NCBI GenBank assembly: GCA_024642065.1
Contig: JAHEBW010000045.1
Coordinates: forward strand, 1 to 64,000
Source of the DNA: Polynucleobacter sp.
GTDB lineage: Bacteria > Pseudomonadota > Gammaproteobacteria > Burkholderiales > Burkholderiaceae
Length of the DNA stretch: 64,000 nucleotides
Direction: 5' to 3'
Shown: positions 38,210-41,620 of the stretch, piece by piece
Layout: every line of letters begins with the position of its first letter
Numbering within the stretch: the stretch's first letter is position 1
Notes under the pieces: model-generated
Databases searched by the model: none
Told to the model about the DNA's origin: nothing
What the model saw: the letters and a program-made list of their open reading frames with translations, nothing else
Translations under genes and position numbers: made by a program

Positions 38210-39691
38210 ATGAATTCACACTTAGCGCTAGAAAACCACATTAATCTCAGTAGAGCAGATGCTCTAAAAATTGCTAAAGAGATATTGTTAGCTCCTGCAG
38301 GCCTTACTGAAGAGGACCTACAAAGAACCTTAGCCCACATGCACTCGCATCATCTTGATGATGCAGACCTTTACTTCCAAAGAACCCACAATGAATCTTG
38401 GAGCTTAGAAGAAGGCATTGTTAAATCTGGAACTTTCAGCATTGACCAAGGCGTTGGCGTGAGAGCTGTGAGTCAAGATAAAACAGCATTTGCCTACTCT
38501 GATGAAATTAGTGTCGCCGCCCTTAAAAAGGCAGCTGAAGCAACTCGAGTGATTGGCGCAAATAACAATAAAACTTATATCAGCCCACAATGGAAAACAC
38601 CGGGCACCCATGCTTTATATCAATCATCTAACCCACTGAATAGTTTGGATGCCAAGGCCAAAATTGCACTCCTTGAAGATATCGAGCGCAAAGCAAAAGC
38701 CAAGGACCCGCGAATTGTTCAGGTAATGGCTGGCTTAGCTGCTGAATATGATGTTGTGATGGTTGCTAGAGCAAATGGCGTCTTGGCTGCAGACATCAGA
38801 CCGCTAGTAAGAGTTTCTATTACTGTGATTGCCGAACAAAATGGTCGTCGTGAAGTTGGTTCATCAAGTGGTGGTGGCAGATTTGATTATCACTTCTTTG
38901 TGCAAGAAAAGATTGATCGATGGATTGATGATGCCGTTCAGTCAGCACTGATCAATCTTGAATCAAGGCCAGCACCAGCTGGGCCTATGACTGTTGTTCT
39001 TGGCCCGGGTTGGCCTGGCGTATTACTGCATGAAGCGATTGGTCATGGTCTTGAGGGAGACTTTAATCGTAAAGGTTCTTCAGCCTTCTCAGGCAAGATT
39101 GGTCAACGCGTTGCGGCCAAGGGAGTGACTGTTGTGGATGACGGCACAATCGCTGGTCGCCGAGGCTCTCTATCGATTGACGACGAAGGCAACCAAACAC
39201 AATGCACCACACTCATTGAAGATGGCATCTTAAAAGGCTATATCCAGGATAGTCTTAATGCACGCCTCATGAATATGCCAGTAACAGGTAACGCCAGAAG
39301 AGAAAGCTACGCTTCACTTCCAATGCCACGCATGACCAATACCTACATGCTTGGCGGCAAAGAAGATCCGCAAGAAATTGTGAGCAGTATCAAAAAAGGA
39401 CTTTATGCCGTGAATTTTGGTGGTGGCCAGGTAGACATTACCAGCGGTAAATTTGTGTTCTCAGCCAGTGAGGCTTATTGGGTTGAGAATGGCAAAATTC
39501 AATACCCAGTGAAAGGCGCGACCATCATTGGCAATGGCCCAGAGTCCTTAAAAGATATCAGCATGATTGGTAATGATATGGCCCTAGACAGCGGTATTGG
39601 GGTTTGTGGCAAGGATGGCCAAAGCGTTCCAGTTGGAGTTGGTCAACCCACCCTTAGAATTAATAATATGACCGTCGGCGGCACAGCTTAA
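38210..39691 (+). CDS. tldD: Metalloprotease TldD
   Basis: With its partner TldE/PmbA forms a heterodimeric zinc protease that cleaves unfolded peptides and matures some ribosomal peptides. The metal-binding HEAIGH is at 274-279 (VLLHEAIGHGLEGDFNRKG), with GTIAGRRGSLSIDDEGN and the late TSGKFVFSASEAYWVENGK. 493 residues. tldE is not in the window. The last codons (around 39670-39681) contain GACCGTCGGCGG, which is partly complementary or identical to arms of the aroG attenuator downstream. Confidence 0.96.
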   Translation: MNSHLALENHINLSRADALKIAKEILLAPAGLTEEDLQRTLAHMHSHHLDDADLYFQRTHNESWSLEEGIVKSGTFSIDQGVGVRAVSQDKTAFAYSDEISVAALKKAAEATRVIGANNNKTYISPQWKTPGTHALYQSSNPLNSLDAKAKIALLEDIERKAKAKDPRIVQVMAGLAAEYDVVMVARANGVLAADIRPLVRVSITVIAEQNGRREVGSSSGGGRFDYHFFVQEKIDRWIDDAVQSALINLESRPAPAGPMTVVLGPGWPGVLLHEAIGHGLEGDFNRKGSSAFSGKIGQRVAAKGVTVVDDGTIAGRRGSLSIDDEGNQTQCTTLIEDGILKGYIQDSLNARLMNMPVTGNARRESYASLPMPRMTNTYMLGGKEDPQEIVSSIKKGLYAVNFGGGQVDITSGKFVFSASEAYWVENGKIQYPVKGATIIGNGPESLKDISMIGNDMALDSGIGVCGKDGQSVPVGVGQPTLRINNMTVGGTA

Positions 39692-39719
39692 TAGACAAGC
39701 AGAAAAACTGTGCTACATT
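39692..39719 (+). promoter_or_regulatory. Candidate promoter for the DAHP synthase leader
   Basis: TAGACA (39692-39697) and an extended -10 TGC-TACATT (39714-39719) are separated by 16 nt, immediately after the tldD stop. The predicted start of transcription is about 39725-39727, on the ATG of the leader peptide. This is a match by eye; transcription from the tldD side is also possible. Confidence 0.45.
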
Positions 39720-39725
39720 AACCAT

Positions 39726-39803
39726 ATGTCTGCAAATAAATTCTATTTCTTTTACTTTTGGTTCTCAGCCCAAGGCGGTCGAGAGGCAGAAATTCAAGCA
39801 TAA
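39726..39803 (+). CDS. Aromatic amino acid-rich leader peptide of the DAHP synthase gene
   Basis: A 25-codon open frame begins ATG TCT GCA AAT AAA and then encodes FYFFYFWF as codons 6-13: five Phe, two Tyr and one Trp in eight codons. It ends with AQGGREAEIQA and TAA, 22 nt before the stem of a strong terminator that precedes aroG. This is the standard form of a ribosome-mediated attenuator: shortage of charged tRNA-Phe, tRNA-Tyr or tRNA-Trp would stall the ribosome on codons 6-13. No Shine-Dalgarno lies upstream of its ATG, and a candidate promoter places the transcript start at the ATG, so initiation may be leaderless. Confidence 0.85.
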   Translation: MSANKFYFFYFWFSAQGGREAEIQA

Positions 39804-39828
39804 GTTTCCTGCACTCAAAATAACCGCC
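39774..39828 (+). promoter_or_regulatory. Antiterminator pairing of the aroG attenuator
   Basis: GGCGGT at 39774-39779 (leader codons 17-18, Gly-Gly) is the exact complement of ACCGCC at 39823-39828, the 5' arm of the terminator. Pairing would block the terminator. The segment lies just beyond the aromatic codons, so a ribosome stalled there leaves it free, while an advancing ribosome covers it. Confidence 0.75.
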
Positions 39829-39851
39829 GACACAAACGGCGGTTTTTTTTT
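39823..39851 (+). terminator. Attenuator (intrinsic terminator) upstream of aroG
   Basis: A perfect 7-bp GC-rich stem pairs ACCGCCG (39823-39829) with CGGCGGT (39837-39843) around ACACAAA, followed by nine T residues. It stands in front of the aroG coding region, 37 nt before its ATG, so it can only act as a premature terminator of the leader transcript. Confidence 0.92.
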
Positions 39852-39887
39852 ACATATTTAAGTATCTAGCAATAAGGAGTTAATGAA

Positions 39888-41012
39888 ATGGTTGATAAAG
39901 CCCTCAGCAACAGAGATAGCTGGTATGCCAGTGTTGATAAAACATCAGAGACGGATGACGCTCGCATTGAGAACATCACTATCCTTCCGCCGCCAGAGCA
40001 CCTTATTCGCTTTTTCCCAATTCAGGGCACCGCTGTTGAAAACCTCATCAGTAAAACTCGTCAAAAGATTCGTGACATCATGCACGGCAAGGATGATCGT
40101 TTATTAGTCATCATCGGCCCTTGCTCTATTCATGATCCAAAAGCAGCACTTGAGTACGCTAACAAATTACTTGAGCAACGCAAAAAATATGCTGGCGAAT
40201 TAGAAATTGTGATGCGCGTTTATTTCGAGAAGCCGCGCACTACAGTTGGTTGGAAAGGCCTAATCAACGATCCGTACTTGGATGAAAGCTACAGAATTGA
40301 TGAAGGCTTGCGCATGGCTCGCCATCTATTAATCGAAATCAATCGCATGGGTATGCCTGCTGGTAGCGAGTTCTTGGACGTTATTTCTCCGCAATATATC
40401 GGCGACTTGATTTCTTGGGGCGCCATTGGCGCAAGAACAACTGAGAGCCAAATTCACCGCGAACTTGCTTCAGGCATTTCAGCTCCAATCGGATTCAAGA
40501 ACGGTACAGATGGCAATATCAAAATTGCAACTGATGCGATTCAATCTGCTAGCAGACCACACCACTTCTTATCTGTTCATAAAAATGGCCAAGTGGCGAT
40601 TGTTGAAACAAAAGGTAATGGTGATTGCCACGTCATTCTTCGTGGCGGCAAGACAACTAACTACGACGCAGAGAGTGTTGCTAAATCATGCGCCGAATTA
40701 GAAGCAGCAAAATTACCAGGCACATTGATGATTGATTGCTCACACGCTAACTCAAGCAAACAACATGAGCGTCAAATTGAAGTAGCCAAGGATATTGCAG
40801 GTCAACTATCTACTGGCTCACAACAAATTTTTGGCGTTATGGTCGAAAGCCACATCAATGCAGGGGCGCAGAAGTTCACGCCAGGCAAAGATAATCCTAA
40901 TGAATTGAAGTACGCGACGAGCATCACGGATGCGTGTATTGGTTGGGATGACTCTATTGACGTTCTAGAAATTTTGGCAAACGGCGTTAAACAGCGTCGC
41001 AACAAAAAATAA
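39888..41012 (+). CDS. aroG: 3-deoxy-7-phosphoheptulonate synthase (DAHP synthase, class I)
   Basis: First enzyme of the shikimate pathway: joins phosphoenolpyruvate and erythrose-4-phosphate. Class I AroF/G/H landmarks are IIGPCSIHDPKAALEYA, RVYFEKPRTTVGWKGLINDP, GARTTESQIHRELASG, GFKNGTDG and MIDCSHANSSKQ. 374 residues (E. coli AroG 350) with a slightly long N-terminus, where feedback sensitivity is set; the inhibiting amino acid cannot be read reliably. AAGGAG at 39874-39879 precedes the ATG by 8 nt. The gene is preceded by the leader peptide and attenuator described here. aroQ, a later pathway enzyme, is at 56443. Confidence 0.96.
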   Translation: MVDKALSNRDSWYASVDKTSETDDARIENITILPPPEHLIRFFPIQGTAVENLISKTRQKIRDIMHGKDDRLLVIIGPCSIHDPKAALEYANKLLEQRKKYAGELEIVMRVYFEKPRTTVGWKGLINDPYLDESYRIDEGLRMARHLLIEINRMGMPAGSEFLDVISPQYIGDLISWGAIGARTTESQIHRELASGISAPIGFKNGTDGNIKIATDAIQSASRPHHFLSVHKNGQVAIVETKGNGDCHVILRGGKTTNYDAESVAKSCAELEAAKLPGTLMIDCSHANSSKQHERQIEVAKDIAGQLSTGSQQIFGVMVESHINAGAQKFTPGKDNPNELKYATSITDACIGWDDSIDVLEILANGVKQRRNKK

Positions 41013-41014
41013 AA

Positions 41015-41070
41015 GACGGGTTAAACCCGTCCTTCTTTACAAAGACCCTAGGTTTACTTAGGGTCTTTTT
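41015..41070. terminator. Tandem hairpin terminator between aroG and the cobalamin adenosyltransferase gene
   Basis: Hairpin 1 pairs GACGGGT (41015-41021) with ACCCGTC (41025-41031) around TAA. Hairpin 2 pairs AAAGACCCTA (41041-41050) with TAGGGTCTTT (41059-41068) and continues into T residues on the plus strand. The second hairpin includes the last codons and stop of the convergent minus-strand gene, so one element is coding on one strand and a terminator on the other. Confidence 0.85.
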
Positions 41071-41620
41071 TATGGTGCCACAGCGTATCTGAGCCACCAG
41101 CTTCTTTATTAAGAACTCTGGCCAACACAAATAGCAAATCTGATAAACGATTAACGTACTGTCTTGGTGTGTCATGGATAGCTTCATGACGGCCCAACTT
41201 CACAATAGATCGTTCAGCACGACGGCACACTGTTCTACAAACATGGGCCTGGGCTGCAGCTCGAGTGCCACCAGGCAAAATAAACTCAGCTAAGCGTGGC
41301 AAGGTGGCATTGTATTTAGCCAACCAAACATCTAATTGGACAACTTGCTCTTCTTTTAGCAAAGTGTAATTAGGAATACAAAGCTCACCGCCAAGATCGA
41401 ACAAATCATGCTGCACTTGCGAAAAAAGCTCTTTAAGCTCTGCTGCAACGCTAGAGGGAAGATCTTCAGTAATTAGAACGCCAATTTCCGAGTTAAGCTC
41501 ATCCACATCGCCCATGGCGCAAATGCGTAAATGGTCTTTATCCACACGCTGGCCATCACCTAAACCAGTTGTTCCAGCATCCCCTGTTCGGGTTGCGATT
41601 TGAGTCAATCTATTAGCCAT
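41054..41620 (-). CDS. Cob(I)yrinic acid a,c-diamide adenosyltransferase, PduO type
   Basis: Transfers the adenosyl group of ATP to cob(I)alamin, producing coenzyme B12. The N-terminal ATP-binding signature TRTGDAGTTGLGDGQRVDKD and the helix motif CRRAERSIVKL are typical of the PduO/ATR family. I start at the ATG at 41620 (MANRLTQIATR), giving 188 residues; an in-frame start at 41677 adds 19 residues with no family match and would overlap the divergent glcD start. Its 3' end forms part of the aroG terminator. No B12 biosynthesis genes are present nearby, so it may act on salvaged corrinoid. Confidence 0.92.
   Translation of the reverse strand: MANRLTQIATRTGDAGTTGLGDGQRVDKDHLRICAMGDVDELNSEIGVLITEDLPSSVAAELKELFSQVQHDLFDLGGELCIPNYTLLKEEQVVQLDVWLAKYNATLPRLAEFILPGGTRAAAQAHVCRTVCRRAERSIVKLGRHEAIHDTPRQYVNRLSDLLFVLARVLNKEAGGSDTLWHHKKDPK

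Follow-up and report, generated by a model that had tools for sequence, protein, structure and literature searches.

Aromatic amino acid synthesis begins with DAHP synthase. According to a passage in PMC5343134, the repressors TyrR and TrpR are conserved in gammaproteobacteria and absent from other classes, and how Burkholderiales tune this step to its three end products is therefore a question. A class I DAHP synthase gene, aroG, was identified in the window, that is, the whole 64,000-nt stretch of Polynucleobacter DNA analysed here, and is the putative regulated gene. The genome carrying the window is 1.67 Mb in size. One further gene in this genome, on contig C9, matches PF00793 and is probably, we assume, a KDO-8-phosphate synthase; no class II DAHP synthase was found in the genome. 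A search of the genome for TrpR, on which TrpR-type repression of DAHP synthase as in E. coli would depend, returned no match, with matches in 2 of 14 control genomes (E. coli included). By eye, trpE follows the preceding gene so closely that no leader fits between them.

A short leader ORF with a run of aromatic codons, followed by alternative RNA arms and an intrinsic terminator, was located upstream of aroG (Table 1). The leader ATG lies 162 nt before the aroG ATG at 39888. The run of eight F/Y/W codons is unique in the six frames of the window, where the next longest run has five; among 200 dinucleotide shuffles of the window, the longest such run was seven codons, reached in three. The positions assigned by the initial annotation to the leader ORF, the codon run, GGCGGT, ACCGCC, the nine T residues, and aroG were all reproduced. 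Its terminator before aroG was also recovered, with a stem of 8 bp (39822-39829 with 39837-39844) and not 7 bp. Directly 3' of aroG (41013-41075), two more inverted repeats were seen by eye, the second followed by a T run, and these are probably the aroG terminator.

Table 1. Features of the aroG leader region, in positions of the window, with the basis of each assignment.
Feature	Position	Strand	Basis
Promoter-like site TAGACA-16-TACATT with extended -10 (TGTGCTACATT)	39692..39719	+	
Predicted transcription start, A of the leader AUG	39726..39726	+	Inferred from the 6-nt gap between -10 and ATG and from SD scarcity among leaders
Leader peptide ORF MSANKFYFFYFWFSAQGGREAEIQA, 25 codons	39726..39803	+	ORF list; leaders of relatives
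Aromatic codon run FYFFYFWF, leader codons 6-13	39741..39764	+	
Leader codons 10-12 (Tyr-Phe-Trp)	39753-39761	+	Inferred to be placed best for control
Arm 1 (TTCTC and GCC)	39762..39770	+	Predicted pairing with arm 2 if ribosome-free; fold -11.7 kcal/mol, z -1.37
Arm 2 (GGCGGT, then GAGAGG and 5' side of inner stem)	39774..39794	+	Alignment pairing; folds
GGCGGT	39774-39779	+	
Stop codon of leader ORF	39801-39803	+	
Arm 3 (3' side of inner stem and ACCGCC), arm 2 partner in the antiterminator	39803..39828	+	Fold; alignment pairing
Intrinsic terminator, 8 bp, 7-nt loop, nine T	39822..39851	+	Stem search; alignment
ACCGCC	39823-39828	+	
Nine T	39843-39851	+	
Shine-Dalgarno GGAG of aroG	39876..39879	+	Sequence
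aroG, class I DAHP synthase, putative regulated gene	39888..41012	+	DAHP_synth_1, Pfam PF00793, E 2.5e-95

Features of a trp-type attenuator were found in this region. A short leader ORF carries a run of codons for products of the pathway, a terminator stands between leader and gene, and, by sequence and prediction, a mutually exclusive antiterminator shares the 5' arm of the terminator. The stretch 39765-39851 has a folding z score of -4.26, and in the antiterminator stretch 39774-39829, arms 2 and 3 fold into a single long hairpin (-20.1 kcal/mol, z -5.40). We consider it very probable, judging from the sequence, that a trp-type ribosome-mediated transcription attenuator controls aroG; a response to starvation would be expected.

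In the proposed mechanism, transcription would start at the A of the leader AUG, and the leaderless mRNA would be loaded with a ribosome at once. With ample charged Phe, Tyr, and Trp tRNAs, the ribosome would run to the leader stop codon and cover arm 2, arm 3 would pair with arm 4, and transcription would end near 39851. If any one of these tRNAs were short, the ribosome would stall within the aromatic run. A ribosome covers about 12 nt past the first base of the A-site codon, and because of this reach, stalls at codons 10, 11, or 12 would place its front edge over arm 1 but short of arm 2. Arm 2, left free, would then pair with arm 3, the terminator would be blocked, and aroG would be transcribed. 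In the absence of translation, arm 1 may instead capture arm 2, allowing terminator formation. The corresponding hairpin is predicted in the window between arm 1 (TTCTC, GCC) and arm 2 (GGT, GAGAG) and also, with other letters, in several further families. Over 103 sequences its mean z score is -1.1, with 60 below -1, which weakly suggests that this possible hairpin forms when the leader is not translated.

AroG is present in 100 of the 101 same-genus genomes and in 233 of the 300 genomes of the order. A rule-based search was applied to 228 upstream regions from part of the same-genus and order genomes, 80 named loci, and a class-level search; these regions are not independent, with some loci included twice and the fetched loci being mostly better AroG matches. 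Leader, terminator, and matching antiterminator arm were found together in 97 regions, leader and terminator only in 17, and the leader ORF only in 16. Five regions have an ORF without a terminator in reach, 92 gave nothing, and one was too short. After removal of duplicates, 110 leaders were retained. Phe occurs in all 110, Tyr in 106, and Trp in 75, leaving 35 leaders without Trp and four without Tyr. The initial annotation held that one run of codons senses Phe, Tyr, and Trp; this fits the run in this genome and does not carry over to the leaders at large, since all three residues are found in just 73 of the 110.

The runs of these leaders contain 489 TTY codons and one TTR codon, a count that favours aromatic codons because the run was defined by aromatic residues; with this caveat, the count argues that aromatic codons are kept and that the run is not mere T-richness. 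Among close relatives, changes within the run are mostly silent third-position T/C changes. Exceptions are codon 6 (Phe/Ser) in the group of the window and codons 11 (Trp/Gly) and 12 (His/Tyr) at the run end in one Burkholderia group. Counting all of the first 14 codons, the two groups show 30 and 57 silent changes versus 62 and 67 amino-acid changes, the latter falling largely outside the run. Leader length ranges from 18 to 30 residues across the 110 leaders. The same RNA arm is read in different frames, as GGREA, LADREG, LAVER, or RPAEER, and therefore the RNA, not the peptide tail, is what is kept.

The alternative stems were analyzed in an alignment of 66 sequences (A2). Terminator pairs form in 97.1% of the cells, and the antiterminator helix NGGCGG/CCGCCN pairs in 96.0%; the A2 sequences were picked by an antiterminator score requiring the 5-bp core and not the outer position, so the core pairing is partly due to selection. 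Terminator and antiterminator alike score above all 500 shuffles in percentage paired, in cells changed on both sides, and in covariation, and slid versions of the helices pair much less. Pairs changed on both sides were as high in 2 of 500 shuffles for the terminator and in 499 of 500 for the antiterminator, and further pair types in 154 and 115 of 500, respectively; these two measures are less telling because the arm cores GGCGG/CCGCC hardly vary. A triple covariation was found at the base before GGCGG, where arms 2, 3, and 4 change together (C-G-C in 34, T-A-T in 16, and A-T-A in 1 of the 66 sequences), while the antiterminator is without pairing at this base in 12 of 66. The apparent covariation of the antiterminator rests on this one position. 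The minimum-energy folds of 102 of 103 sequences contain the antiterminator closing helix (at least four of five pairs), with a mean antiterminator z score of -2.6 and 92 of 103 sequences below -1. The initial annotation had named a comparison with relatives as the check on its proposal of a ribosome-mediated attenuator. That proposal is supported by the comparison: the codon run and both alternative stems are conserved, with covariation on few positions as the cores hardly vary.

A covariance model was built on 66 sequences and searched against genomes at several taxonomic levels; its E-values are rough. The multi-genome searches used strict filters with 10-30 candidates scored per genome (30 in the same-genus search), and absences are therefore soft. 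In the same genus, full-length matches were found in 18 of 101 genomes (E ≤ 6.2e-14; next match 1.5e-4). A total of 77 of 300 genomes of the order matched (E ≤ 4.1e-8), 30 of them in the training set, and all 77 matches lie upstream of aroG (63 by coordinates and 14 by fetched sequence). The class search yielded matches in 4 of 185 genomes, two of these being the genome of the window and one member of its order. The phylum search yielded matches in 20 of 200 genomes (E ≤ 1.6e-6), 15 of them outside the order, with three in one same-class family and the other 12 spread over three families from other classes. These 15 matches are also all upstream of aroG, and 14 are untrained (L212 was trained). 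A full-length match was obtained for 60 of the 80 named loci, of which 31 were trained and 29 untrained, some of the untrained ones being close kin of trained ones. The matching loci include Polaromonas, Variovorax, Hydrogenophaga, Acidovorax, Comamonas, Paraburkholderia, Caballeronia, Massilia, Janthinobacterium, and Rugamonas. The 20 named loci without a model match include three Polynucleobacter, two Cupriavidus, and three Methylotenera loci as well as Thauera, Azoarcus, Rhodocyclus, Chitinimonas, and L145, a contig with almost no upstream DNA. The model counts are preferred because the rule-based search took the wrong stem as terminator in L054, L155, and L164, all matched by the model, and missed leaders that the model finds (e.g., L133, L135, L152, L153, and L154). 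Significance rests on the model E-values.

Weaker model matches (E about 1e-5 to 1e-2) mostly cover the terminator end only and are presumed to be ordinary terminators. Six weak matches from the order were fetched (L246-L251), and none is upstream of aroG. In L246, L247, L248, and L250, all from one family of the order, an ORF of ~200 residues (MNEVSDA...) is preceded by an aromatic leader (e.g., MITFSAVFNAYFYWYRSS...) and a GCCGCC/GGCGGC terminator. The ORF is not aroG and, in L247, has no Pfam match; it may be a second target for an attenuator of this type. Of three weak phylum matches fetched, L267 and L268 look like chance, with no aroG seen. The model also matches an enterobacterial leader before a pheS-like gene in L266 (E 6.2e-5), an unplanned positive control; we take this leader to be pheM and the gene to be pheS. 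The loci from other classes of the phylum (L252-L263) show an aromatic leader (e.g., MIHLTASFWYFSYGSSLAAGG) before aroG, mostly with a GCCGCCAG/CTGGCGGC terminator, and a TA-rich -10-like site near the ATG. Genome G256 has two DAHP synthase genes (L041 and L091); the 64% copy carries the attenuator, and the copy closer to the AroG of the window (75%) is without an aromatic leader.

Among the 110 leaders, 52 have an extended -10 (TGnTAnnnT) that stops 6, 7, or 8 nt short of the leader ATG (mean 0.34 and maximum 3 in shuffles), and elsewhere in reach this motif occurs once each at gaps of 9, 13, 17, and 22; the remaining 58 leaders are without the 6-8 nt spacing. The gap in the window, from TACATT to the leader ATG, is 6 nt. 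An SD-like motif precedes four of the 110 leader starts and, by a lenient test (at least one in-frame ATG or GTG), 87 of 102 aroG genes. Judging from the -10 spacing and the SD scarcity, the leader mRNA in the promoter-spacing group of the window probably begins with AUG and would thus be leaderless. Leaderless mRNAs are reported, in passages of the literature, for Burkholderia cenocepacia and Cupriavidus metallidurans.

The element has apparently been lost in part of the genus. A set of 37 leader-free loci (L014-L034, L065, L067-L075, L078-L080, L122, L123, and L126) was compared, comprising 34 from same-genus genomes and three from named Polynucleobacter, with no two upstream stretches identical. 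In all 37, aroG starts 6 or 7 nt behind a -10 (TAAAAT in 31 and TAGAAT in six), the preceding ORF ends only 18-57 nt before aroG, and no terminator-like stem was found in the 200 nt before aroG; a looser stem search gave one weak stem, in L069. This uniform pattern indicates that loss of leader and terminator went with an apparently leaderless aroG. Same-genus genomes whose AroG is ~79% identical share the aroG start region with Polynucleobacter L122, L123, and L126. Since 83 of 101 same-genus genomes are without a full-length match under the strict filters, the switch appears to be dispensable.

Several known systems resemble the element in part. No family of Rfam 15 reaches its gathering score on it; in the window, Leu_leader (RF00512) scores 22.4 bits against a gathering score of 50, and Phe_leader (RF01859) 17.4 bits against 55. 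No report of the element before aroG in Burkholderiales was recognised in the open-licence literature, and an earlier mention is possible. The enterobacterial pheST (pheM), pheA, and trp leaders also work by ribosome-mediated transcription attenuation, but before other genes and with one amino acid each. The genes called aroA in one published set of attenuator predictions are presumably DAHP synthase genes in its nomenclature. That set (Merino database; PMC1173090, Table 7) places attenuators before aroA-first operons in Vibrio and Thermus; unlike the element here, it covers tyrA operons with no leader peptide described, and the part of the table examined has no Burkholderiales aroG entry. In Acholeplasma, the proposed uORFC-13-1 motif is described in parts of PMC8632094 as a short ORF and terminator before the DAHP synthase gene aroF, but with at least one Phe codon and an RBS, and in Acholeplasma and environmental sequences only. 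Attenuation was once hypothesised for E. coli aroF, as the same text mentions (PMC8632094). The trpL leader and rnTrpL of S. meliloti, in the descriptions excerpted, share a leaderless leader ORF at the transcription start and an alternative terminator and antiterminator, but concern Trp only and precede trpE(G). The initial annotation regarded it as unusual that one codon run senses all three end products at the first step of the common pathway; an attenuator before a DAHP synthase gene is not in itself a first, as the C. glutamicum aroR-aroF attenuator has been published (Neshat et al., 2014; via excerpts of PMC11802643 and PMC4046766). Compared by these descriptions, both systems place an aromatic-codon leader peptide and attenuation before a DAHP synthase gene, but AroR has Phe-Tyr-Phe, a reported response to Phe and not Tyr, and a host in another phylum, whereas the aroG leader has an 8-codon run with Trp. 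The mechanism is thus known, and what sets this variant apart is the three aromatic codons, the probably leaderless start, and the wide distribution before one gene. New with respect to the initial annotation are the possible hairpin of arms 1 and 2, the probable leaderless start, the placement of the Tyr-Phe-Trp codons, and the apparent disappearance of the element from part of the genus.

Other explanations of the locus were considered. The hairpin might merely terminate the upstream gene, an ORF ending at 39691, with the short ORF being incidental. The terminator does stand about 130 nt behind that ORF, and its stem is terminator-like on both strands, but many families keep leader, arm 2, and terminator as a set before aroG, and the leader-free loci of the genus are, in all 37 cases, also free of a terminator-like stem. 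This explanation is scarcely credible, and its strong form, a terminator only, is ruled out by conservation. That an aromatic-rich peptide is kept over many genera would also suit a functional hydrophobic small protein, or a TnaC-like arrest peptide sensing a free amino acid. No fixed arrest residue was seen, however, and we hold such a role to be very improbable; the small-protein reading was rejected on the exchange of F, Y, and W among leaders, the variation in length from 18 to 30 residues, and a tail that changes frame with the RNA arm.

Given a ribosome-mediated attenuator, it might effectively sense Phe, and perhaps Tyr, with the Trp codon adding little. Consistent with this, F is present in 110 of 110 leaders, as against 106 for Y and 75 for W, and is the commonest residue at every run position from 39 to 13 nt before arm 2. 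The C. glutamicum leader, according to passages of a review, responds to limitation of Phe and not of Tyr. The codons best placed for control nevertheless read Y-F-W in the window and in 21 of 103 leaders (FWF in 18), and this stretch holds W in 61 of 103 (F in 99, Y in 50, and all three in 26). All three residues also occur in 45 of the 52 leaders with an extended -10 at 6-8 nt. We therefore regard a mainly Phe-sensing attenuator as possible but rather doubtful, and trivalent sensing as plausible in the group of the window, less so for leaders without Trp. The terminated leader RNA might in addition act in trans as a small RNA, compatibly with attenuation, as rnTrpL does in S. meliloti; like rnTrpL in the descriptions excerpted, the attenuator RNA has a strong terminator at its 3' end and probably an AUG at its 5' end. 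We consider a trans-acting role unlikely.

In its fullest form, our reading is that the Tyr-Phe-Trp codons of a leaderless ORF would act as a trivalent OR gate on a single DAHP synthase gene, replacing the isoenzymes and repressors of E. coli. This gate would have spread through Burkholderiales, would also stand before aroG in other classes, and would have been lost in the genus of the window, with aroG placed straight behind a leaderless promoter. We give this full reading an even chance. The aroG element makes the control of the DAHP step in Burkholderiales directly testable, and it would add an RNA family absent from Rfam 15. It would also be an attenuator in which a leaderless start recurs, and the natural loss series inside one genus asks what such control is worth.
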